Assembly: GCA_947573135.1 (NCBI GenBank) | Contig: CANPDU010000018.1 | Location: 1 to 61,052, forward strand | Origin: an uncultured Bacteroidales bacterium | Lineage (GTDB): Bacteria; Bacteroidota; Bacteroidia; Bacteroidales; Muribaculaceae | Length of the DNA: 61,052 nucleotides | Direction: 5' to 3' | Part shown: one piece after another, positions 10,082 to 60,735 of the stretch | Numbering within the stretch: position 1 is the stretch's first letter | How the letters are laid out: each line of letters begins with the position of its first letter | Made by a program: the position numbers and the translations under genes | The notes under the pieces: model-generated | What the model was told of the DNA's origin: nothing | Databases searched by the model: none | Seen by the model: the letters and a program-made list of their open reading frames with translations, nothing else

Positions 10082-11623
10082 TTATTCAAAAGAACCCATT
10101 TTCAGGAAGTTGACTTCTTCCTGAGTCAGATAGCGCCAGCGTCCGCGGGGAAGATTCTTCTTGGTCAGACCGGCGAAATAGACCCGGTCGAGTTTGGTCA
10201 CATGATAGCCGAGAGACTCGAAAATACGGCGCACGATACGGTTGCGGCCTGAGTGTATCTCGATGCCGGCCTGATTGCGGTCTGTCTCTGTAGCATAGCT
10301 GATTGCGTCGGCATGGATAGGACCGTCTTCGAGCTCGATACCGTCGGCGATACGCTGCATATCCTCTTCAGAAATATCCTTGTCACACCAGACATGATAG
10401 ATCTTTTTCTTTACATACTTGGGGTGAGTCAGTTTCGAAGCGAGGTCGCCGTCGTTGGTGAGCAAAAGCACACCGGTCGTGTTTCTGTCAAGACGTCCGA
10501 CAGGATAGATTCGTTCGTTGCATGCGCCCTTGACGAGATCCATAACGGTAGTACGCCCGTTGGGGTCGTCGCTTGTCGTCACGCAGTCTTTAGGCTTGTT
10601 AAGCAGGATGTAACATTTGCTTTCGAGAGCCACAACCTTTTCATCATATTCGACAACGTCGCTGTGACAGATCTTTGTGCCAAGCTCAGTCACTACTTGA
10701 CCGTTGACCTTGACAAGTCCCTGCTGGATGAATTCGTCAGCCTCACGGCGCGAGCATATGCCGGCATTGCTCATAAACTTGTTAAGACGTATCTGTTCGT
10801 TGGGATCGGGTATCGGCATTTCATACTCGATGCGCTTGGGACGCGGAGTGAAACTCTTGCCGCGGCCGGGGAACGATCCTCCGCCGTTCTGATTGTTATA
10901 GCGTGCGCCCTGACGGTTCTGATTGTTATAGCCGCCCTGACGGTTCTGATTGTTGTAGCCACCCTGGCGGTTCTGATTGTTGTAGCCGCCCTGACGGTTC
11001 TGATTGTTGTAGCCACCCTGACGATTGTTGTTATAGCCGCCCTGACGGTTCTGATTGTTGTAACCGCCCTGACGGTTCTGATTGTTGTAGCCACCCTGGC
11101 GGTTCTGATTGTTGTAGCCGCCCTGACGGTTCTGGTTGTTGTAGCCGCCCTGACGATTGTTGTTATAGCCGCCCTGACGGTTCTGATTGTTGTAGCCACC
11201 CTGACGATTGTTGTTATAACCACCCTGACGGTTATAATTATTATTGTATCGCGGCTGATATGTGGTGCCACTCTGCTGAACTTCGCCTTCTGCACCATCC
11301 GTTACCCCTTGAGGCGCATTGTCATGCTGTGTATAATCCGGGCGAGGACGCGGCTGATAGCCACCCGCACGGTTGTTATAGCCCCCGTTGTTGTTATAAT
11401 AACCGTTCTGACGGTTTGGGTTGTTATAACCGCCGTTCGGACGCGGCTGATATGCACGCTGGTAACGTTGCGTTGCGTCACCGCTCTGCTCGCCGTCAGC
11501 TGTCGCAGGCTTTCCGTAATTCACTTTTTCGTAGCGGGAAAAATCATTGGTTTCACCGTTCGCGCTATTAGTCTGACCGATACGCGGACGTTTGGGTTTC
11601 TTTTCGTTTTCGTTAGGTTCCAT
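10082..11623 (-). CDS. RsuA/RluB-type rRNA pseudouridine synthase with long repetitive disordered N-terminus
   Basis: The C-terminal half (about residues 275-513) is a pseudouridine synthase of the RsuA/RluB/RluE/RluF group. It has an S4 RNA-binding domain (IRLNKFMSNAGICSRREAD) followed by the catalytic segment YPVGRLDRNTTGVLLLTNDGD containing the nucleophilic Asp. It should isomerise specific uridines in 23S or 16S rRNA; RluB is the likeliest ortholog. The first roughly 265 residues are low complexity, rich in Asn, Gly, Arg, Tyr and Gln, with 12 tandem units GGYNNQNRQ or GGYNNNRQ. This RGG/YNN-like tail probably binds RNA or promotes condensation (inference). Family members usually have about 240-300 residues, so the tail doubles the protein. 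A candidate -7 element lies at 11909-11916, implying a long leader. Confidence 0.88.
   Translation of the reverse strand: MEPNENEKKPKRPRIGQTNSANGETNDFSRYEKVNYGKPATADGEQSGDATQRYQRAYQPRPNGGYNNPNRQNGYYNNNGGYNNRAGGYQPRPRPDYTQHDNAPQGVTDGAEGEVQQSGTTYQPRYNNNYNRQGGYNNNRQGGYNNQNRQGGYNNNRQGGYNNQNRQGGYNNQNRQGGYNNQNRQGGYNNQNRQGGYNNNRQGGYNNQNRQGGYNNQNRQGGYNNQNRQGGYNNQNRQGARYNNQNGGGSFPGRGKSFTPRPKRIEYEMPIPDPNEQIRLNKFMSNAGICSRREADEFIQQGLVKVNGQVVTELGTKICHSDVVEYDEKVVALESKCYILLNKPKDCVTTSDDPNGRTTVMDLVKGACNERIYPVGRLDRNTTGVLLLTNDGDLASKLTHPKYVKKKIYHVWCDKDISEEDMQRIADGIELEDGPIHADAISYATETDRNQAGIEIHSGRNRIVRRIFESLGYHVTKLDRVYFAGLTKKNLPRGRWRYLTQEEVNFLKMGSFE
10908..11230 (-). repeat. In-frame coding tandem repeat (24/27-bp units)
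   Basis: Twelve consecutive units encode GGYNNQNRQ (27 bp, nine copies) or GGYNNNRQ (24 bp, three copies). In protein order the lengths are 8,9,8,9,9,9,9,8,9,9,9,9, so a block of one short and four long units occurs twice. The units are nearly identical at the DNA level, consistent with recent slippage or recombination. Boundaries are accurate to a few bases. Confidence 0.9.
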
Positions 11624-12103: not shown

Positions 12104-12895
12104 ATGAAAATCAAACGTATTCTGCTGGCGGCAACCGCCGCTTTCGCGACTCTGTCGGGCCTCGCGGCCGGCAATGATGTCAAAGTAATCGCCCACCGCG
12201 GCTACTGGACGGCTCCCGGATCTGCACAAAACTCAATCGACGCTTTGGCCAAAGCCGCCAAAGCCGGTTGTTACGGTTCTGAATTCGACGTATGGATGAC
12301 ATCCGACTCAGTGCTTGTAGTCAACCATGACGGATGGATCAACGGCTACAACGTACAGGTGACACCGTCAGAAATCATCTGCGCTCAGAAACTTGAGAAC
12401 GGTGAAACAGTGCCAACTCTCGAACAATACTTTCAGGAAGCCCAGAAATACCCTAATCTTAGGCTAATATGCGAAATGAAATTCCCTGACAGCAAGTATC
12501 AGGAAGTGAAACTCGCGCAGAAAATGTGTGAACTCGCAAAAAAATATAACGTCGAAGACCGCATCGACTATATCACCTTCTCTCGCGACGGAATGTACAG
12601 CATCAAGAAATTTGCTCATCCCGGTGCCGAGATCTATTATCTTACCGGCGATTTCATCCCCGAGCAGCTCAAATATATGGGTGCCGGAGGTGCTGACTAC
12701 GGCATCTGGATCTTCCAAAAACACCCCGAATGGATTAAGCAGATCCAGGATCTCGGCATGAAAGTCAACGTCTGGACCGTCGACGACGAAGCAGGCATGA
12801 AATGGTGCATCGACCATGGTGTCGACTTCATCACCACTAACCAGCCGGAGCGTTTCATGGAGCTGCAGAAGACCTACAAGCCCGCATCAAAATAA
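12104..12895 (+). CDS. Secreted glycerophosphodiester phosphodiesterase
   Basis: The enzyme hydrolyses glycerophosphodiesters released from phospholipids to glycerol-3-phosphate and an alcohol. The 263-residue protein has a signal peptide (cleavage near LSGLAAG, residue 22), so it is periplasmic or exported. GDPD landmarks follow: VIAHRGYW with the catalytic His, then GSEFDVWMTSD with the metal-binding acidic residues, and VVNHDGWI with the second His. The C-terminus has the family's WTVDDEAGMKWCIDHGVDFITTNQPE ending. It has its own promoter and a terminator at 12921-12951. A role in phosphate or glycerol salvage is likely. Confidence 0.92.
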   Translation: MKIKRILLAATAAFATLSGLAAGNDVKVIAHRGYWTAPGSAQNSIDALAKAAKAGCYGSEFDVWMTSDSVLVVNHDGWINGYNVQVTPSEIICAQKLENGETVPTLEQYFQEAQKYPNLRLICEMKFPDSKYQEVKLAQKMCELAKKYNVEDRIDYITFSRDGMYSIKKFAHPGAEIYYLTGDFIPEQLKYMGAGGADYGIWIFQKHPEWIKQIQDLGMKVNVWTVDDEAGMKWCIDHGVDFITTNQPERFMELQKTYKPASK

Positions 12896-12920: not shown

Positions 12921-12953
12921 AAAACGCGGGTGCCGGACAGCCCCGCGTTTTTT
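12921..12953 (+). terminator. Terminator after glycerophosphodiesterase
   Basis: The 10-bp stem aaaacgcggg/cccgcgtttt (12921-12930 and 12942-12951) has an 11-nt loop and ends in a T-run. It lies only about 10-25 bp before the first serpin start codon, with no new promoter seen in between. Confidence 0.8.
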
Positions 12954-12963
12954 AATATTCAAC

Positions 12964-14235
12964 ATGAAAATCAGAGCCATGAAAAGAAGCATATTATACT
13001 TTGGAATTATAGCTATCACAATAGGGCTGACTTCTTGCTCAGGTTCGACCGGCGATAAATCATCAGGACAGACCGACTCCATATCCTCCCGTACGGACAG
13101 CATTACTAATGCCATACCTGAGGTAGTTGAAGTCTTACCGGATATCGAACTGGACAATTTCGAATTTGATTTCTTCAAGGAGACAGCCAAATCAAACATT
13201 AAGACAAATTTTGCGACATCGCCCGTCGGAGCCTCCTTTGAAATCTCTATGATAGCAAACATATGCGATTCGGCTCTTCAGAAACAGATATTAAAAGCAC
13301 TTAAATATGAAGATCTGTACCGGCTCAACCAAAACAACAGAAAGCTGATCAGACGTATAACAAAAAATAATTCCAATACGAAAGCATATATCGGCAACTC
13401 CTTATGGTTAGCCGACGATCCGCGCATAAATCTTAATCCGAATAAGAAAGATTCGCTGCGCCAATACTTCAACGCCACCGTTGAGAAAGTTGATTTCAGA
13501 TCAGCCAACGCACTTCCGAAAATAAGAGAATGGGGACAAATTGTAACCGCCGGCAACATTACGCCCTCATTATCCAAGATTGACGACACATGCGGTTTTA
13601 TCTTGATGAGCCTTCTATATTACTCAGGACGTTGGATTGAATCATTCAACGAAAACGAGACGAAATTACGCACATTCCATAAATACGATGGAGACACGAC
13701 TGTTAACATGATGTCTCACACGCGTTATGCAGGCTATTACAGAAATACTGATTTCAAGGCAGTTACACTATATTTAGAGGATGACTTCTCTATATCATTT
13801 TTGCTACCGCGAAAAGGTCTGACAGCCGACAGTCTGATATCATCATTAACATCATCGAATCTTTCGCGAATCAAAAACAACTCGCAGTCGACTAATCTTA
13901 AATTGTCAATACCTAAATTTCACATCAATGCTCGACAGAATGCACTTGAGACCTTTAAACTACTAGGATTCCATATTTCGCCATCACAATTTAACGGAAT
14001 TAGCAAAAATGCTACTGACAGAATTGAAATGAGCCAACTTTCAAAAATCTCAGTAGTAGAAAATGGGGTTGAAGCATCGTCGGAAAGCACAACGATAAGT
14101 TGCATACTCGGTTGGCCTGAAGATGAGCCGGAACCAATAATTGTGACATTCGACAGGCCTTTCGTATTCCTGTTGCAGCATAACCGCACAAAAGCAATTA
14201 TAATGGCCGGACAATATGTCGGTCCTGATGAATAA
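12964..14235 (+). CDS. Serpin-family lipoprotein (first of two)
   Basis: A serine-protease-inhibitor fold protein, probably anchored on the cell surface or in the periplasm. There are two possible starts, 12964 and 12979; the latter gives MKRSILYFGI...LTSC with Cys as the lipidated residue, and the protein is 423 or 418 residues long. The serpin body follows, with FATSPVGASFEISM near the start, a hinge at ENGVEASSEST, and the closing FDRPFVFLL and AGQYVGP strands. By alignment to alpha-1-antitrypsin by eye, P15 is Gly, P14 Val and P12 Ala, compatible with loop insertion and inhibition. The reactive loop is about six residues longer than in alpha-1-antitrypsin and acidic (PEDEPEP), so P1 cannot be fixed. 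The neighbouring gene is a paralog 31 bp downstream. Confidence 0.85.
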   Translation: MKIRAMKRSILYFGIIAITIGLTSCSGSTGDKSSGQTDSISSRTDSITNAIPEVVEVLPDIELDNFEFDFFKETAKSNIKTNFATSPVGASFEISMIANICDSALQKQILKALKYEDLYRLNQNNRKLIRRITKNNSNTKAYIGNSLWLADDPRINLNPNKKDSLRQYFNATVEKVDFRSANALPKIREWGQIVTAGNITPSLSKIDDTCGFILMSLLYYSGRWIESFNENETKLRTFHKYDGDTTVNMMSHTRYAGYYRNTDFKAVTLYLEDDFSISFLLPRKGLTADSLISSLTSSNLSRIKNNSQSTNLKLSIPKFHINARQNALETFKLLGFHISPSQFNGISKNATDRIEMSQLSKISVVENGVEASSESTTISCILGWPEDEPEPIIVTFDRPFVFLLQHNRTKAIIMAGQYVGPDE

Positions 14236-14266
14236 TAATAGCCCAAACAATAAATAATAAGTTATC

Positions 14267-15454
14267 ATGAATGCTATCCGCATAATCGCATTATCGGTTT
14301 CATTTTACATGATCTCAATGACGACTTACAGTTGTAGCAACCATAATTCGTCTAATAATGCGGAAACAACCGAATCAGACACGATTGTTGCTGTTCCTGA
14401 CTCTTTCAAAAATGATGCATTTGACTTTGAAATTCAGCTTACGAACAACATCGCGACAATCTATAAAGACCATAGTTTTGCCGTATCTCCGATATCCGCT
14501 CAAATTGCTATATCAATGACAGCAAATCTGGTTCAAGATACGTTAGCTGCGTTCATAGCCGAAAAATTAGGATATAACAATATTAACGAGTTAAACACCG
14601 CCAACCGGAATATCATCACCCTTCTTACCCCGGAAGTGGACGAACACTGGTATGTCCCCACAAAATTTACAAATAAAATATGGACAAACAGACGTTTTGA
14701 TTCCAAAATCAGAAAAAATTTAGAGGCATTCTACGGTGTAAAAACGGAGAAAACTAACTTAGCATCTAAAAACGTAATCAAAAAAATAACCTCAAGCATT
14801 GCGAAAGCATCAAACAATGCAATTGCCGATCCTTCGCTGTCATTACCTCCTCAAACCGATATAATTATCAGTTCAATAATATCCTATTTTAGCCAATGGT
14901 ATATGGATTATCATTTTGAAGATGCCGACAATGAGATTTTCTATACACCTGCCGGCGAACGGAAAACAAAATTCATGACTGAGACCATTAATGTCGGATA
15001 CTATGCAAATGACCGCATCGAGAGCGTTACACTAAAACTCGACGACAAATGCCGGTTTATCTGCATACTGCCGCAAGATAAAAATATCAGCTCTTTATTC
15101 CCGAATTTCAGCAAATCTGATTTAGAACAAGTTCTTACCGAAACCGAGAGCAAACCCATAGACCTTACCTTGCCGGAATTTACACTCAACACCGATCTTT
15201 CGCTGATTCCATCATTTGATCAGCTCGGCATCAAGTTATCTGACCATAATATTTTTTCAGAACAATTCTCCAATTTAAAAATTGATCAAGAAGGCATCAC
15301 TGCCAGCAGTGCTACAATTAATTATGTTGTAGTAGGATGCGAAGTCATAAATGATCCGATAAAAGTCGTCTTCGATCGGCCGTTTATCTTCTTTCTTATC
15401 GAGCCCGAATCCAGAACTTTGTTAATGGCCGGACAATATGTCGGCCCGGAATAA
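14267..15454 (+). CDS. Serpin-family lipoprotein (second of two)
   Basis: A 395-residue paralog of the preceding serpin, in the same orientation 31 bp downstream. The N-terminus is a lipoprotein signal with lipobox TTYSC (Cys at about residue 23), then a short Ser/Asn/Glu-rich linker. Serpin features include SFAVSPISAQIAISM, the hinge QEGITASSATIN, and the closing FDRPFIFFLIEPESRTLLMAGQYVGPE, which nearly repeats the first copy. The hinge is rich in small residues, with Ile at P14 where Thr, Ser or Val is usual. The reactive loop differs completely from its neighbour (VVVGCEVINDP), so the two copies probably face different proteases. The unit ends at the 15487-15512 terminator. Confidence 0.85.
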   Translation: MNAIRIIALSVSFYMISMTTYSCSNHNSSNNAETTESDTIVAVPDSFKNDAFDFEIQLTNNIATIYKDHSFAVSPISAQIAISMTANLVQDTLAAFIAEKLGYNNINELNTANRNIITLLTPEVDEHWYVPTKFTNKIWTNRRFDSKIRKNLEAFYGVKTEKTNLASKNVIKKITSSIAKASNNAIADPSLSLPPQTDIIISSIISYFSQWYMDYHFEDADNEIFYTPAGERKTKFMTETINVGYYANDRIESVTLKLDDKCRFICILPQDKNISSLFPNFSKSDLEQVLTETESKPIDLTLPEFTLNTDLSLIPSFDQLGIKLSDHNIFSEQFSNLKIDQEGITASSATINYVVVGCEVINDPIKVVFDRPFIFFLIEPESRTLLMAGQYVGPE

Positions 15455-15486
15455 TACTATTGTCAGACAATATCGTCATTAAATAG

Positions 15487-15512
15487 CAAGGCCCGCCGAT
15501 TGGCGGGCCTTG
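15487..15512. terminator. Terminator between serpin genes and nifJ
   Basis: A perfect 11-bp GC-rich stem (caaggcccgcc at 15487-15497, complement 15502-15512) with a 4-nt loop lies between convergent genes ending at 15454 (plus) and 15542 (minus). Confidence 0.85.
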
Positions 15513-15541
15513 CGCATTATTATCGTATAATCTGTGTCAGA

Positions 15542-18500
15542 TTATTCTTCGGGTGCTACACCCCACTGCTGACGGGCCAGACGGAGGTAGTTGTTGTAGC
15601 GCCACTGAGCGTTCTTCTTGGCGGCAGCGAAAAGTTCGGCAGCCTCAGCCGGATACTGTTTGAGAACAGAAGCGTAACGAACCTCACCCTTAAGGAAGTC
15701 TTCAAACTTATCCCAGTCGGGCTGTTTGCTGTCGAGAGTGAACGGGTTCTTGCCTTCTTCCTCGAGAGCGGGGTTATAACGCCAGAGGTGCCAGTAACCG
15801 CATTCGACGGCGCGAGCCTGTTCCATCTGAGCGTGACCCATACCGGCACGGAGACCGTGGTTGATACAGGGCGAGTATGCAATGATGATCGAAGGACCGT
15901 CATATGCCTCAGCCTCGCGGATAGCCTTGAGAGTCTGAGCATTGTCGGCGCCCATTGCAACTTGCGCGCAGTAAACGTAACCGTAAGTCGAAGCGATCAG
16001 ACCGAGGTCTTTCTTACGGATACGCTTGCCGGCTGCGGCAAATTTTGCGATAGCGCCTACAGGCGTTGCCTTTGATGCCTGACCGCCGGTGTTAGAGTAA
16101 ACTTCGGTATCAACAACAAGAACGTTGACATTCTTGCCTGATGCAAGTACATGGTCAAGACCGCCGAAACCGATATCATAAGCGGCACCGTCGCCGGCAA
16201 TGATCCACTGCGAACGTGCTACGATATAACCCTTGAGCTCAACGATACCCTTGCAGATGTCGCAGTTGCATGCCTCGCAGAGAGGTACGATCTTATCGGC
16301 AACTTCGCGGGTAACGGCTGCGTTGTCTTCATTTTCGAGCCACTGTGCGGCGAGCGCCTTGATCTCATCGCTGCAGCAGTCGCATGTCTGAGCCTTGGTC
16401 ATGAGGTCCGCGAGACGCTTGCGCATCTTTTCGGTTGCGATCTTCATACCAAGACCGAATTCAGCGAAGTCCTCGAAGAGTGAGTTAGCCCATGCGGGAC
16501 CGTGGCCGGCAGCATTGGTTGTATAAGGAGTCGAAGGCACGGAGCCTGAGTAGATCGACGAGCAGCCTGTTGCGTTAGCAACCATCTCATGATCGCCGAA
16601 GAGCTGAGAAATGAGTTTCACATAAGGAGTCTCACCGCAGCCAGAGCATGCACCCGAGAACTCAAAGAGCGGAGTTGCGAACTGGCTGTTCTTGGGGTTA
16701 AGCTGGATGTCGACAAGATTCTGCTTGCTTGAAACAGCCTTGACGCAGTAATCCCATTCTTTCTGAACGTCGAGCTGAGTCTCGAGCGGTTTCATTTCGA
16801 GAGCTTTCACGCCCTTCTTGCCGGGGCAGACGTCAACACAGTTGCCGCAGCCGAGACAGTCGAGCACGTCGACAGCTTGCATGAAGCGCATGCCGGTGAA
16901 TGTCTTGCCGATTGCCGGAATAGTAGCATTTTCGCCGAAGGGAGCTGCAGCCATTTCTTTTTCGTCGAGCACAAACGGACGGATTGAAGCGTGAGGGCAA
17001 ACAAACGCACACTTGTTACACTGTATACAGTTTTCTTCAAGCCACTGGGGAACAAAGGCTGCGACACCGCGTTTTTCGTAAGCGGCAGTACCCTGATGCC
17101 ATGTGCCGTCGGGGATAGCCTCGAAGTCTGAAACTTTCAGAAGGTCGCCGTCCTGAGCGTTGATCGGACGCACGATCTTGTTGACGAATTCGGGATCGTG
17201 GTTTACGGGAACCTCATCGTCAGCAAGGTTTGCCCATGCGGGATCAACAGCGAGCTGTTTGTATTCGCCGCCGCGGTCTACTGCTGCATAGTTCTTGTCA
17301 ACGACGTCCTGTCCTTTCTTGCCATAGCTCTTGACGATAAACTTCTTCATCTGCTCTACAGCGAGATCGACGGGGATCACTTCAGTGATACGGAAGAATG
17401 CGCTCTGGAGAATGGTATTGGTGCGATTGCCGAGACCGATTTCCTGAGCGATCTTTGTTGCGTTGATATAGTAAACCGAAATGTTGTGTTTTGCAAAATA
17501 ACGCTTAACCTTGTTGGGGAGGTTCTTTGCAAGTTCCTCACCTTCCCAGATGGTGTTGAGAAGGAATGTACCGTTATCGCGTAGACCGCGGGTAACGTCA
17601 TACATATGGAGATAAGCCTGTACGTGGCATGCCACGAAGTTAGGCGTGTTCACGAGATATGTCGAGCGGATGGGTTCGTCGCCGAAACGAAGGTGCGAGC
17701 AAGTGAAGCCGCCTGATTTCTTCGAGTCGTAGGCGAAATATGCCTGACAGTATTTATTGGTGTTGTCACCGATAATCTTCACTGAGTTTTTGTTGGCGCC
17801 TACAGTACCGTCGGCACCGAGTCCGAAGAATTTAGCCTCGTAGATTGATTCGCCGCCGAGAGCCATCTCCTCTTTCATCGGAAGAGAAGTGAAAGTCACG
17901 TCGTCGACAATTCCTACGGTGAAATGATCCTTAGGCTGCGGCAGAGCAAGGTTCTCATATACGCCGATAATCTGGGCGGGAGTGATGTCCTTCGAAGCGA
18001 GACCATAGCGGCCGCCCACGATCAGCGGAGCGTTTTCTGTGCCGTAGAAGCATTCCTTGACGTCGAGGAACAAAGGTTCGCCGTTGGCGCCGGGTTCTTT
18101 TGTGCGGTCAAGCACAGCGATGCGTTTCACTGTCTTGGGAACAGCCGCGAGGAAATGCTTTGCCGAGAACGGGCGATAGAGATGAACAGAAACGAGACCT
18201 ACTTTCTCACCGTTCTTGACCATATGGTCAATGGCTTCCTGAGCGGCCTGAGTCACAGAACCCATGGCGATGATCACGCGGTCGGCGTCAGGAGCGCCGT
18301 AGTAGTTGAACAGGTGATATTCACGACCGGTAATCTTTGTGATCTCGGCCATATAATTTTCAACGATTTCAGGCACTGCTTCATAGTGACGGTTGCATGC
18401 TTCGCGGTGCTGGAAGAACACGTCGCCGTTCTCTGCCATACCGCGAGCTACAGGTGCGTCAGGCGTGAGAGCGCGTTTGCGGAACTCTGCGAGAGCCTGA

Positions 18501-19096
18501 CGGTCGAGCAGCGGTTCGAGATCTTCGGCGTCAAGCTGTTCGATCTTCTGTATTTCGTGAGATGTGCGGAAGCCGTCGAAGAAGTTGACGAAAGGCACGC
18601 TTGATTTGATTGTAGAGAGGTGTGCGACACCTGCAAGATCCATGACTTCCTGAACCGATCCTTCGGCCAGCATGGCGAAACCTGTCTGACGGACAGACAT
18701 CACGTCCTGATGGTCTCCGAAAATGCTGAGCGCATGAGAAGCGATCGTACGTGCGGAAACGTGGAAAACCGACGGGAGCAGCTCGCCGGCGATCTTATAC
18801 ATGTTAGGAATCATGAGAAGGAGACCCTGCGACGCTGTGTATGTCGTGGTCAGAGCACCTGCCTGAAGCGAACCGTGAACGGCTCCGGCAGCGCCACCTT
18901 CAGACTGCATTTCCTGTACGAGAACTGTCTCACCGAAAATGTTTTTACGTCCGGCAGCAGCCCATTCATCGACATATTCTGCCATTGTCGAAGACGGAGT
19001 AATGGGATAGATCGCAGCTACCTCAGAGAACATATAGCTCACATGAGCGGCAGCCTGATTACCATCACAAGTCAAGAATTTCTTTTCTTTGCTCAT
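15542..19096 (-). CDS. nifJ: Pyruvate:ferredoxin (flavodoxin) oxidoreductase
   Basis: This oxygen-sensitive cytoplasmic enzyme oxidises pyruvate and CoA to acetyl-CoA and CO2, passing electrons to ferredoxin; it is central to anaerobic fermentation. The 1184 residues match the single-chain form. In order there are the pyruvate-binding domain (from residue 1, with AEVAAIYPITPSSTMAE cues), the transketolase-like and gamma domains, a two-cluster ferredoxin insert at roughly 690-760 (CIQCNKCAFVCP and CLGCGNCVDVCP), and the C-terminal TPP domain with GCGETPY, ATGCSS, GDGAAYDIG and SNTGGQASK. It is monocistronic, with a promoter at 19178-19208 and about 80 bp of leader. Confidence 0.97.
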   Translation of the reverse strand: MSKEKKFLTCDGNQAAAHVSYMFSEVAAIYPITPSSTMAEYVDEWAAAGRKNIFGETVLVQEMQSEGGAAGAVHGSLQAGALTTTYTASQGLLLMIPNMYKIAGELLPSVFHVSARTIASHALSIFGDHQDVMSVRQTGFAMLAEGSVQEVMDLAGVAHLSTIKSSVPFVNFFDGFRTSHEIQKIEQLDAEDLEPLLDRQALAEFRKRALTPDAPVARGMAENGDVFFQHREACNRHYEAVPEIVENYMAEITKITGREYHLFNYYGAPDADRVIIAMGSVTQAAQEAIDHMVKNGEKVGLVSVHLYRPFSAKHFLAAVPKTVKRIAVLDRTKEPGANGEPLFLDVKECFYGTENAPLIVGGRYGLASKDITPAQIIGVYENLALPQPKDHFTVGIVDDVTFTSLPMKEEMALGGESIYEAKFFGLGADGTVGANKNSVKIIGDNTNKYCQAYFAYDSKKSGGFTCSHLRFGDEPIRSTYLVNTPNFVACHVQAYLHMYDVTRGLRDNGTFLLNTIWEGEELAKNLPNKVKRYFAKHNISVYYINATKIAQEIGLGNRTNTILQSAFFRITEVIPVDLAVEQMKKFIVKSYGKKGQDVVDKNYAAVDRGGEYKQLAVDPAWANLADDEVPVNHDPEFVNKIVRPINAQDGDLLKVSDFEAIPDGTWHQGTAAYEKRGVAAFVPQWLEENCIQCNKCAFVCPHASIRPFVLDEKEMAAAPFGENATIPAIGKTFTGMRFMQAVDVLDCLGCGNCVDVCPGKKGVKALEMKPLETQLDVQKEWDYCVKAVSSKQNLVDIQLNPKNSQFATPLFEFSGACSGCGETPYVKLISQLFGDHEMVANATGCSSIYSGSVPSTPYTTNAAGHGPAWANSLFEDFAEFGLGMKIATEKMRKRLADLMTKAQTCDCCSDEIKALAAQWLENEDNAAVTREVADKIVPLCEACNCDICKGIVELKGYIVARSQWIIAGDGAAYDIGFGGLDHVLASGKNVNVLVVDTEVYSNTGGQASKATPVGAIAKFAAAGKRIRKKDLGLIASTYGYVYCAQVAMGADNAQTLKAIREAEAYDGPSIIIAYSPCINHGLRAGMGHAQMEQARAVECGYWHLWRYNPALEEEGKNPFTLDSKQPDWDKFEDFLKGEVRYASVLKQYPAEAAELFAAAKKNAQWRYNNYLRLARQQWGVAPEE

Positions 19097-19268: not shown

Positions 19269-21830
19269 CTATCTGATTATAATCTTCGTTGCTTTACCGC
19301 CGACAGACAGCACAAACAGTCCCCGGCCGGGAGCTGTAATGACTGCCGATCCGTCAGACCCGGCGACCGCCGAAGCGACTATACGACCGCAAATGTCACT
19401 CAGGGCCATACGTTCGCCGCATTTACCCGAATAACGGACATCAAGTCCGTCAACCGTAACACCGGCGTATGTGTCCGTAATAATGTCATCAATTCCGGCA
19501 TTGCCGTCAAGCGAGACAGTCTGACTGTCGGACCACGCCGAGCAGCGTCCGTTGGCATCGACCGCACACACGCTATAAGTATAAAGCGACGCATCGTCGC
19601 GAAGTCTGTCGACTCTGTATGATGTAACATCGCCGACCTCAAGCATATCATAGCCGGCAAGAGTGACATATCCGCTATCTCCGAATGAGATACGGACATC
19701 ATCGACGGCAATATTACCTATACTCTTATTATATATAAAGCGCAGACGGCGCACACCCGCAGGGATCTCATCAGTGCGAAATTCCGCCCCCGATCCGCGC
19801 TTGGGATTGAAATCGGCAATCGCTACCCAGCTGTTACCGACAAGACCGTCGACGGCCAGAACAGACTTGGAATTTGTTGCAATACCTGTCATCCAGAAGC
19901 TTACGGATGCTATATCAGTATCATAGACGGCTGTCATAAAGCCGGAGCCGGACCTGGCGAGTTTCAGCGAAGGAGCGCTCTCGCCGAAATTGCCTTCATC
20001 CGTATACACGTCGCCCTTGCTTGATATCAGCTCCCAGCCTTCGGGCAAAGTGACAACGTCGGCATCCCCGCTACCGAAATTCGCAATTTCAGGTTCCTTC
20101 GGGTTACCTTCCACAAAAGCCTTGACAGTAAGTTTGTAAGCCACAGCTCCGTCGGCCGGCTTCCATGCAGCCTCAAACCAGCCGTCACCGACAGCCGCAG
20201 GCTCACTGACAACAGGCACGGCTGCATCACAGCGTCCGCCCGATACATTGAAAGAGATAACACCGTCATTCTCCTCGATGTCGGTTACAGGCAGATTAAG
20301 TCTGCGACCGGCCCATGTTTTCATCGATGGAGTTGTATCATCCGTAAATGAGGTGACGCCTTTTGAGCCAGGGAAAGCATAATCGCCCAGTGAGCCGCGA
20401 GTCGAGCTACTCGAGTCATACCATGTTCCGCAGGCCTCTTCGATATCGACATAATTGTGTTCCCGTTGATTGTTCACAATATTTCGCGTCCAGATCGAAG
20501 GGTTGTAATCTACGTGCCATATCAGCATTCCGTGACCCGGGACATAGCTGTCCCAACCGGTCTGCTGTCTGTTTTCAAGCAGGAAAAACTCATTTTCCGA
20601 GCCTGTGGGAATGATACAGCCCTGATTAGTTTCGCTGACAGCTTCAAGAGTAAAAGTGTCGGGTCCGTCTATGACCGCCGGATCAATCCAGCCTAGCGAA
20701 TAGCGTTCATAAATCGAATAAGCCGGAGGGGTGCGGCCGTCGTTATTATACGGACCCTGATCGAGCACGCTCCAGATGCCGGGAGTCCAGTAACCGCTGC
20801 CGTTTGTCACATAAAGGTCGGGCAGACCGAGCACATGAGAGAACTCATGGACAAACGTTCCGATGCCGACGGGGCGCGGACGGCCATAGCCGTCAAGATC
20901 AAGTTCGTTGGAACATGCATATTTATCGACAATAACATCATCGAGCGTAAGGCTCAGGCGAGCCGAGCTTAATCGCCACTGATGGGGCCATACAGAGTCC
21001 TTGGAACCGTAAGAAGCCTCACCGTATCCGGCATAAAAGACAAAAACATTGTCGACATAACCGTCTCCGTCGATGTCATACTCTGAAAAATCTATTTCCG
21101 AGTCAAGACCGACACAGGCATCATAGATCATCCGAGCCGCGTTTTTGTCATTGTCGTTGGCGTCATTACCGCCATAATAAGCCATAGGATGCGGCAACGT
21201 CACAGGACCGTAGACATCGAATGTCGGGACGAACTGACCGTTGGACGAATCGATAAAATAATCCCTGGCAGATCCGGTGCCGTCATATAGATTGAACCCC
21301 TCGCGGTTGAGCATTTCCAGAAAGAATTCACGGTCAGAGACCTCACTGAATTTCACGTCATCATATTGGGCAAGAATAACCAGACCTTTCAATTCCTTAT
21401 AGCCGAGAAAAGCGTCATCCATAAGGCCTATGCCTCCGCTTCGGGAAATCACCTGCGCAGGAGCCGAATACGGAGTCTCTGACGCACGCCGAGCGAGAAG
21501 TTCGTCTATCTTCGACAGGTCGGTACTCATAACAATATCACGCTGTGTCGCAGACAGTTCAGACAGGTCGTTCACTCTTACAGAAGTTGGCTTGAGTGAA
21601 CCGTCGGCAGCGAAATCAGCAAAACAATAGAAGCCGTCGGCACCGACGGTCACAGGATAACCCTCGGGCGTAAGAGTAATATGTGAACGTTCGTCGCCGA
21701 TCTTGCGGACACTTATCATCGTCCCGTCAGGTTGAGCAAGTTGCAACAGTCCCTGCTTTGCCGGCACAGCCCACGTGAAACCGGCTGTCATCATGGCAGC
21801 TGCGGCGCATATCAGTTTAATCTTATTCAT
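19269..21830 (-). CDS. Secreted M6-family metalloprotease
   Basis: An 853-residue exported zinc protease related to immune inhibitor A. It has a signal peptide (to about residue 22), a propeptide-like region to about 120, and an M6 catalytic domain with the zinc site HEFSHVLGLPD (328-338). A calcium-loop-like DIDGDGYVD lies at 252-260, and other M6 features such as the AYYGGND stretch are nearby. A beta-sandwich region with a W-x-x-x-x-GAVAYKLTV fibronectin-like segment follows (about 530-780). The last roughly 70 residues begin AGIDDI and end KIIIR, resembling the end module of the secreted protein at 7101. It probably degrades host, dietary or bacterial proteins outside the cell. A -7 element lies at 21897-21904. 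Confidence 0.88.
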   Translation of the reverse strand: MNKIKLICAAAAMMTAGFTWAVPAKQGLLQLAQPDGTMISVRKIGDERSHITLTPEGYPVTVGADGFYCFADFAADGSLKPTSVRVNDLSELSATQRDIVMSTDLSKIDELLARRASETPYSAPAQVISRSGGIGLMDDAFLGYKELKGLVILAQYDDVKFSEVSDREFFLEMLNREGFNLYDGTGSARDYFIDSSNGQFVPTFDVYGPVTLPHPMAYYGGNDANDNDKNAARMIYDACVGLDSEIDFSEYDIDGDGYVDNVFVFYAGYGEASYGSKDSVWPHQWRLSSARLSLTLDDVIVDKYACSNELDLDGYGRPRPVGIGTFVHEFSHVLGLPDLYVTNGSGYWTPGIWSVLDQGPYNNDGRTPPAYSIYERYSLGWIDPAVIDGPDTFTLEAVSETNQGCIIPTGSENEFFLLENRQQTGWDSYVPGHGMLIWHVDYNPSIWTRNIVNNQREHNYVDIEEACGTWYDSSSSTRGSLGDYAFPGSKGVTSFTDDTTPSMKTWAGRRLNLPVTDIEENDGVISFNVSGGRCDAAVPVVSEPAAVGDGWFEAAWKPADGAVAYKLTVKAFVEGNPKEPEIANFGSGDADVVTLPEGWELISSKGDVYTDEGNFGESAPSLKLARSGSGFMTAVYDTDIASVSFWMTGIATNSKSVLAVDGLVGNSWVAIADFNPKRGSGAEFRTDEIPAGVRRLRFIYNKSIGNIAVDDVRISFGDSGYVTLAGYDMLEVGDVTSYRVDRLRDDASLYTYSVCAVDANGRCSAWSDSQTVSLDGNAGIDDIITDTYAGVTVDGLDVRYSGKCGERMALSDICGRIVASAVAGSDGSAVITAPGRGLFVLSVGGKATKIIIR

Positions 21831-59700: not shown

Positions 59701-60735
59701 TTAAAAATAGGTTTTGACGGCGAAGAGGAATTGGTCAATGAAGATACGTTTGAAGGAGGCAATATTGTTCTGCTCGTAGAACATCAGCATGGCCTTTTTG
59801 TAATCAATCGAATCCACGGTGCGGAATGAAATCGGACAATAGCCGTTGGCGATGAGAATGCCGTTGCTCACGATTCGTGCTGTGCGCTTGTTGCCGTCGG
59901 TGAACGCCTGAATGTAGCTGAGCAAAACAAGTGCGAGAAGGGCTTTCTCAAAGATGTTGCTCTTACCGTTGATGAGCCGAACTGTATCTTCAAGAGCTTC
60001 GCGTATCTGGAACTCATTATCGAGCGGAGTGTAGTTTGTTCCGGTTATGCCGACGCGGCGATGGCGTATGTTTCTATCAACGCCTAACTCTTTTGTAAGC
60101 AACGCATGGATTTCTTCGATACGGGCAACAGTCAAATCTTTAAGATAGTCCGGCACATCGAGAATAAAGTCGAGCGCATCCTTGTGATTGAGTAGCATCA
60201 CGGCTTCCTCTTTTGTCTTTCCGCTTGCCGTTTGTTTCTCTTTCAACAGTCTTTCTGTTTCAAGTAAAGAATATGTGTTGCCCTCTATCTGCGATGATTT
60301 CCAAGACAAATCAATTCCGAGACGTTCCATCTCTTTTCGGTATTCCAACTCGGACATTTCCGAAAGATGTTTACGGAAAAGAGCCTGCGCGTCATCAAGA
60401 CGTTGCAGCTCTTCATTGGTGAATAAATCCACCTTTGGAAGGATTTCATTTATGAGCTCAAAATTGAATGGTTCCTGCACCTGTCGTTCATCAACATCCT
60501 TGTCAAAGTATGTGTCGAGGTTTAAGTCCATAGTCACATGCGCCTGCGGCGTAAGCTTATAGCGAGTAGCCGGTCCTCGACCGACAACCTCTATGTGCCC
60601 CTTTGCAGTTGCATCGGAAAGCATACGCATAAGAGTCCTGTCACTTATCTGTTTGGATAAGGCGGGGAGAATATCTGCTCGCTTTGATAGCGGATTATAA
60701 TGTAAGAATTGTAGTATTTCGATTTCTGCGGTCAT
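59701..60735 (-). CDS. Fic-family protein with winged-helix-like N-terminus and substituted catalytic histidine
   Basis: A 344-residue protein. The N-terminus (about 1-65) looks like a winged helix (SDRTLMRMLSDATAKGHIEVVGRG). A linker with SSQIEGN (147-153) matches the class II inhibitory motif [S/T]xxxE[G/N], and the Fic core is QAFTDGNKRTAR (276-287). The canonical core is HPFxDGNGRxxR: here the catalytic His is Gln276 (codon CAG, 59908-59910) and the second Gly is Lys, while Asp, Gly-Asn and Arg residues are kept. It may therefore not AMPylate, or may use another base. The promoter region carries 32-bp-spaced repeats, suggesting autoregulation. Confidence 0.88.
   Translation of the reverse strand: MTAEIEILQFLHYNPLSKRADILPALSKQISDRTLMRMLSDATAKGHIEVVGRGPATRYKLTPQAHVTMDLNLDTYFDKDVDERQVQEPFNFELINEILPKVDLFTNEELQRLDDAQALFRKHLSEMSELEYRKEMERLGIDLSWKSSQIEGNTYSLLETERLLKEKQTASGKTKEEAVMLLNHKDALDFILDVPDYLKDLTVARIEEIHALLTKELGVDRNIRHRRVGITGTNYTPLDNEFQIREALEDTVRLINGKSNIFEKALLALVLLSYIQAFTDGNKRTARIVSNGILIANGYCPISFRTVDSIDYKKAMLMFYEQNNIASFKRIFIDQFLFAVKTYF

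Follow-up and report, generated by a model that had tools for sequence, protein, structure and literature searches.

A tandem pair of predicted serpin lipoproteins without an adjacent protease gene, within a C10 protease-paired serpin family of the Muribaculaceae

Among the nearest described counterparts of the gene pair reported here is miropin of Tannerella forsythia (PDB 5ncs), a bacterial serpin like both members of the pair and one of the top solved relatives of the first of them, although the match is only at E 4.9e-27 and the available part of PMC8233489 gives miropin neither a tandem partner nor a link to a C10 protease. The siropins and other serpins of gut bacteria have an inhibitory hinge like that of the pair, according to the available parts of PMC8233489 and PMC5127057, and have been reported on human serine proteases, unlike the C10 target that we propose below; the available part of PMC5127057 uses none of the terms "operon," "cysteine protease," or "tandem." Serpins are also described as cross-class inhibitors of papain-like proteases, including cathepsins and bacterial staphopains, in the available part of PMC7863939, and such inhibition appears in that of PMC8233489 as well. 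In Bacteroides fragilis, the Bfp-Bfi system combines a C10 gene with an adjacent, co-transcribed inhibitor gene, and the accessible text cites SpeB-Spi alongside it (PMC2873492). Both systems follow the same logic as the C10-serpin units described here, with an inhibitor gene next to a C10 gene, but Bfi is small (116–138 aa) and staphostatin-like and Spi is a propeptide analogue, neither being serpin-type as in our units; moreover, our pair, unlike either system, has no protease. The potempins of T. forsythia are lipoprotein inhibitors encoded beside the KLIKK proteases, as in the units described here, although their folds and protease classes differ. In toxin-immunity systems, orphan immunity genes are antidotes retained without the toxin, and their contact surface evolves rapidly; in the present case, by contrast, a protease inhibitor of the suicide type would serve as the antidote, and the toxicity of the protease is putative.

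The window, by which we mean the whole stretch of 61,052 nucleotides that was analyzed (contig CANPDU010000018.1 of an uncultured Bacteroidales bacterium), contains the following features around the pair:

12104..12895, + strand: glycerophosphodiester phosphodiesterase (GDPD), upstream flank (Pfam GDPD)
12921..12953, + strand: terminator-like inverted repeat (AAAACGCGGG...CCCGCGTTTT) accompanied by a T run (read in the sequence)
12964..14235, + strand: serpin 1 (P0001, 423 aa; Pfam Serpin, miropin/conserpin match, reactive-loop parse)
14267..15454, + strand: serpin 2 (P0002, 395 aa; Pfam Serpin, alignment, loop parse)
15486..15513, both strands: terminator-like hairpin of 12 pairs between serpin 2 and PFOR (hairpin scan)
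15542..19096, − strand: pyruvate:ferredoxin oxidoreductase-like gene (PFOR), downstream flank (position search in 49 genomes)
19269..21830, − strand: M6 protease with a C-terminal DUF6383 domain (Pfam)

An earlier note on this DNA had described two adjacent serpin genes, and the pairing proved correct, with both ORFs where it had placed them. Serpin 1 starts at 12964 or possibly at 12979, and 31 bases separate it from serpin 2. The inverted repeat lies between the GDPD gene and serpin 1, just before the first ATG; the hairpin scan, with its loop limit of 8, does not list it. Given the 31-base gap and the terminator-like elements before serpin 1 and after serpin 2, the two genes look like one transcription unit. 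The GDPD gene stands in the slot that a C10 protease gene holds at the linked serpins described below, and our C10 search found no such gene upstream of the pair or anywhere on the window contig. We take the downstream flank, from its sequence, to be a PFOR-like gene. The M6 protease was rejected as a candidate serpin target because it is encoded on the other strand, belongs to another class, and lies behind the intervening PFOR gene; the earlier remark that it was not an obvious target was thus a reasonable one. Elsewhere in the window, we observed an S4-domain pseudouridine synthase whose long N-terminal tail is built of GGYNN(Q)NRQ repeats (10082–11623, − strand) and a Fic/DOC family protein (59701–60735, − strand).

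The profile scan bore out the assignment of both ORFs as serpins, since each matched PF00079 (MEROPS I4; cut-off, 27 bits) significantly and over nearly its full length. Serpin 1 scored 213.9 bits (E 5.4e-63; residues 64–421 on profile positions 4–370 of 370) and serpin 2 scored 127.3 bits (E 1.1e-36; residues 53–394 on positions 5–370 of 370), and an NCBIfam scan of the two returned no match. Among solved structures, the matches of serpin 1 included conserpin (E 2e-27) and miropin (E 4.9e-27), and the more divergent serpin 2 found its best match in 9j88 (E 1.3e-12). The two proteins are 28% identical to each other, and in the alignment serpin 2 lacks ~11 residues ahead of the hinge compared with serpin 1; in a genome-wide profile search, it was the weakest of the genome's six serpins (124 bits). 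Both carry the C-terminal FDRPF...MAGQYVGP motif that had been noted before. Of the lipoboxes claimed for the two proteins, that of serpin 1 (LTSC) is good, but that of serpin 2 (TYSC) is atypical at positions −3 and −2. Structure models built from two-row alignments had pLDDT values of 31.6 and 33.9 and were unusable, so the serpin fold is assigned here from sequence profiles.

Inhibitory serpins have small, uncharged residues at the inward-facing hinge positions P14, P12, P10, and P8. These positions are V/A/S/S in serpin 1 (hinge ENGVEASSES) and I/A/S/T in serpin 2 (hinge QEGITASSAT), all small or hydrophobic and uncharged, so that both hinges appear compatible with loop insertion and both proteins with an inhibitory role. 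Serpin 1 carries a Glu at the outward-facing P9, where an acidic residue was found in 3 of 132 loops. By counting, P1 is Leu in serpin 1 (TTISCIL|GWP) and Gly in serpin 2 (INYVVVG|CEV).

The earlier note had called serpins uncommon in bacteria, which is untrue of the source lineage. There are six serpins in this genome. At the level of the genus, 33 of the 49 genomes encode serpins; the figures are 45 of the 149 genomes sampled for the family and 130 of the 295 sampled for the order. In all of our counts, these terms are the taxonomic ranks of the source bacterium (family Muribaculaceae, order Bacteroidales). A run of three tandem serpins was seen in a genome from another family of the order (L219:1007-4762).

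A C10 peptidase-like protein adjoining one serpin, confirmed by Pfam, gave the lead to a wider pattern. Of the 136 full-length serpins of the family, 63 (38/81 in the genus and 25/55 in the rest) have a divergent C10 (streptopain-family) gene directly upstream on the same strand, and the gap between the two open frames has a median of 4 bases. The remaining 73 serpins stand alone (58; 33 in the genus and 25 in the rest), follow another serpin (7; 3 and 4), or lie at contig edges (8; 7 and 1). No opposite-strand C10 gene was found upstream or downstream at any of the 136 loci, and the two cases of a same-strand C10 gene downstream of a serpin were both part of the next unit. One duplicate row (L117, equal to L109) was excluded from the genus, broken-C10, and lipoprotein counts.

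The genus genome tables point the same way from the protease side: at least 32 of the 61 divergent C10 matches listed (<130 bits, and including some genes split into two) lie less than 2 kb from a serpin, all of them on the same strand and with the C10 gene first, and 20 of the 29 unlinked divergent matches were inspected. None of the 89 canonical C10 matches among those listed lies within 2 kb of a serpin. A family-wide C10 table holding strong matches only was left out of these counts. In other families of the order, we found the pairing at 0 of the 30 best-scoring serpin loci and at 1 of the 20 low-scoring loci listed, one of which (L209) stops at a contig edge. This proportion of 1 in 50, obtained with a C10 model built from the source family that distant C10 proteins may escape, indicates that the pairing is mainly a trait of the source family. 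The single neighboring C10-serpin pair observed outside the family is at L218:857-3546 (G291).

The linked C10 proteases look active, judging by their sequences. All four linked C10 proteins scanned with Pfam have a propeptide-like I69 domain together with the C10 domain, and of the 44 linked C10 ORFs that reach 380 residues, all keep the best-conserved Cys and 43 keep the best-conserved His; from the C10 context, we take these to be the catalytic residues. The best solved match of one linked C10 protein was interpain A (E 1.1e-4).

Decay at these loci is asymmetric. The C10 gene was intact at 42 of the 63 linked loci, broken at 16, and cut by a contig edge at 5, where a gene counts as "broken" if 85% of the model is not covered by any one open frame, a definition under which assembly errors are possible; 2 of the 16 broken-C10 loci lie near a contig end. 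All 63 loci have a full serpin by selection; loci were chosen mostly through serpin matches, and the asymmetry depends on that choice. Counting from the protease instead, what comes after the 57 intact divergent C10 genes in the loci is a full serpin in 42 cases, another gene in 14, a contig edge in 1, and a broken serpin in none. One of the 16 broken-C10 loci belongs to the window's own genome (contig C29). At G000 contig C29:23500-29300 (L109), we observed two consecutive C10-serpin units, the first having a C10 gene with one in-frame TGA and an intact serpin. An intact C10-serpin unit of the window's genome lies on contig C1 (− strand; C10 match at 89316–89984, serpin match at 87820–88917).

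By their N-termini, the proteins encoded after the 14 C10 genes without a serpin comprise 8 lipoproteins, 5 small outer-membrane-type proteins, and 1 that is neither, and a Pfam scan of six of the eight lipoproteins gave no match. This mixed slot, along with the decay asymmetry, is what would be expected if the downstream gene neutralizes the protease and other inhibitors can take over its position, although it is not proof of this. Four lipoproteins of ~225–245 aa behind divergent C10 genes (L125:1189-1920, L126:2021-2728, L127:1567-2241, and L129:2630-3328) are candidates for new C10 inhibitors; we read an RFP(F/V)xVW stretch common to those of L125, L126, and L127, and those of L126 and L129 had no Pfam match. 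At L130–L133 and L136, a divergent C10 gene precedes a small protein that is, by its N-terminus, of outer-membrane type and not a lipoprotein.

We placed the pair in a quick tree of 100 serpins, built without a mixture model and before the last 37 family loci were added, in which the one long-branch join that drew a warning lies outside the window clade. Serpins 1 and 2, together with relatives from genomes G180 and G175, form a clade of five rows (support 99). Its sister clade (87) has seven rows, five of them C10-linked, and holds the genome's other four serpins (three C10-linked). Both clades fall within a 100-supported set of 40 rows, 16 of them linked. When the C10-linked label was mapped onto the tree, it required 36 changes, compared with a shuffled mean of 33.4; linked and unlinked serpins are interspersed, and this scatter suggests that loss or gain of the partner is frequent. 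Among all of the serpins compared, close relatives of serpin 1 occur only in G175 and G180, and a position search in 49 genomes found the place beside the PFOR gene to be common to these three genomes. In G175, PFOR comes immediately after a serpin 1-like gene, and the contig starts just before the serpin; in G180, the order is a partial serpin 2-like gene, a serpin 1-like gene, a serpin 2-like gene, and then PFOR. The tree puts the apparent duplication into serpin 1 and serpin 2 before the split of these species. As judged by tree and gene order, the window pair is a syntenic branch without a protease within the C10-paired serpin family.

The reactive loops of the family serpins diverge faster than any stretch of the body tested. 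Over 27 disjoint serpin pairs, mean identity was 0.356 in the loop (P7–P3′), 0.626 in the body, and 0.787 in the hinge, and none of 318 ten-column body windows was as low as the loop (lowest, 0.371). Changes in loop length explain part of this, as the 13 pairs with equal loop length gave 0.485 for the loop vs. 0.664 for the body. Serpin 1 departs from the family trend: the apex TTISCIL is identical, with a register shift of one residue, in its G175 relative at 46% body identity (3 of 321 seven-column body windows are equally identical in this comparison), and the G180 relative has QTITVIL at its loop apex. This conservation suggests a constant target for serpin 1. A basic P1 residue occurs in 2 of 132 loops, making trypsin- or plasmin-like targets unlikely for the family. 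We also considered P1/P2 preference as proof of target class and rejected it, as the counts do not distinguish targets of the cysteine class from those of the serine class, and C10-linked and unlinked serpins have similar counted P1/P2 residues.

Acidic residues after the lipid-bearing Cys are the surface-export signal of Bacteroidetes lipoproteins, according to the available part of PMC5080379. At least one was present in 121 of the 126 callable family serpins and none in the other 5. The mature N-termini of serpins 1 and 2 have no acidic residue at positions +2 to +6, leaving the description of the pair as surface-anchored unsupported; with this signal missing, the two proteins, as predicted lipoproteins, more likely face the periplasm. 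The serpin 2-like protein of G180, which is outside the callable set, begins CSNEEEP, so the missing acidic residues are not a trait of the whole window clade.

We tentatively favor, with somewhat less than even confidence, the explanation that the pair consists of orphan serpins that trap C10-type cysteine proteases, the cell's own or those of neighbors. Both proteins would be inhibitory serpins, probably periplasm-facing lipoproteins; once cleaved by a target protease, the exposed reactive loop would insert into the central sheet and leave the protease trapped as a covalent acyl complex. C10 (streptopain/interpain-like) enzymes would be the most likely target class, because the serpin family of the pair is most often partnered with an upstream C10 gene; as the pair itself has no C10 neighbor, its target is argued by kinship. 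The pair may have lost its protease partner or may never have had one, and as stand-alone antidotes the two serpins could protect against the C10 proteases of neighbors or of other loci in the same genome, which has three C10-serpin units, the protease gene being broken in one of them. The loops of serpins 1 and 2 differ (counted P1 Leu vs. Gly), so they probably represent two target specificities. Our account of serpin identity, hinge, family-wide C10 pairing, decay asymmetry, loop hypervariability, and synteny comes from sequence comparison, whereas the inhibitory activity, the class of target, the location, and the protective role are inferred. The frequency of the C10 pairing makes a cysteine protease the best-supported target class for the pair. 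Against the C10 reading, the two genes of a C10-serpin unit could share their regulation without the serpin acting on the protease, over half of the family serpins are not seen behind a C10 gene, and the loop of serpin 1 is conserved. A broader proposal seems possible but more doubtful: that family serpins are cognate, fast-evolving antidotes to exported C10 proteases, that the serpin is one of several swappable folds behind C10 genes, and that the window pair are orphan antidotes against the proteases of competitors.

The main rival, a serious one that we regard as less likely, is that the pair defends the envelope as miropin might, trapping host or gut serine proteases of the elastase, chymotrypsin, or cathepsin G type. 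P1 Leu would suit chymotrypsin-like enzymes and P1 Gly or Ser elastase-like ones, and the loop apex that serpin 1 shares with its G175 and G180 relatives is as expected for a constant target. By sequence, miropin is among the closest solved structures of serpin 1, and it inhibits human plasmin, as siropins inhibit human elastase, according to the available part of PMC8233489. Such a role fits poorly with a cysteine protease gene as the commonest neighbor in the family, with the scarcity of basic P1 residues noted above for plasmin- or trypsin-like targets, and with the lack of a surface-export motif in the pair. Dedicated defense against host or neighbor proteases, as the earlier note had proposed, is therefore possible but incomplete as an account, given that about half of the family serpins follow a C10 cysteine protease gene. 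It is improbable that the serpins are non-inhibitory or decaying and kept for binding or storage: serpin 2 is divergent and shorter and serpin 1 has the rare Glu at P9, but both frames are open, no charged residue stands at an inward hinge position, and similar loop apices are retained in relatives. Control of an envelope serine protease of the cell itself as a housekeeping role, for which the absence of an export motif, the shared place beside PFOR in three genomes, and the conserved apex of serpin 1 could all be cited, appears more improbable still; close relatives of serpin 1 in G175 and G180 only do not look like a core function, and no serine protease gene was adjacent among the ORFs read.

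We found no report of C10-serpin pairing in a literature search that covered few subscription papers or preprints; the pairing is absent from the available parts of PMC8201313, PMC7863939, PMC8861167, PMC4936053, and PMC2873492. In the parts available, PMC2873492 lacks the word "serpin," PMC8861167 mentions serpins nowhere but in its table notes, where they are predicted inhibitors, and PMC7863939 has "serpin" 59 times, "streptopain" once, and "bacterial serpin" not at all. An S24-7 genome paper reports streptopain homologs with a C10 domain in 26 genomes, and the word serpin is absent from its available text. Taken alone, the window pair adds new members to a known fold; what is new is its setting, a C10-paired serpin family with a protease-less pair. 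This C10 setting makes the function of bacterial serpins testable, as the recurrence of a protease gene beside a serpin gene points to a natural target, open to examination with two purified proteins from one operon. If the C10 reading is true, serpins would join the few inhibitor folds that accompany C10 proteases, cross-class trapping of cysteine proteases would be part of normal bacterial physiology, and the window pair and other stand-alone serpins would be retained antidotes. If the antidote proposal is also true, bacterial serpins would serve in protease warfare as an immunity system that works across protease classes.

The idea of reactive-loop cassette switching, which we rejected, had been raised by shared 3′ ends and by fragments of serpin C-termini located where contigs begin. 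Two of the contig-start fragments coincide with contig overlaps of fixed length, 55 bases (L012/L026) and 127 bases (L011/L024), which is what assembly would produce; the remaining C-terminal fragments resemble broken genes, and no inverted or silent serpin cassette was found among the part of the fragments tested. At L073:1967-2209, an 81-aa ORF fuses a serpin-type signal peptide to a serpin C-terminus, a remnant of internal deletion. The four serpins of the source genome other than the window pair (L001, L002, L003, and L005) have a near-identical C-terminus, RNTKTGSIIMMGQYTQP, with differing loops and bodies. Their 3′ ends are 77–92% identical in DNA over ~130–330 bases in all six pairs, partly beyond the gene, which suggests that these four genes may have exchanged sequence there.
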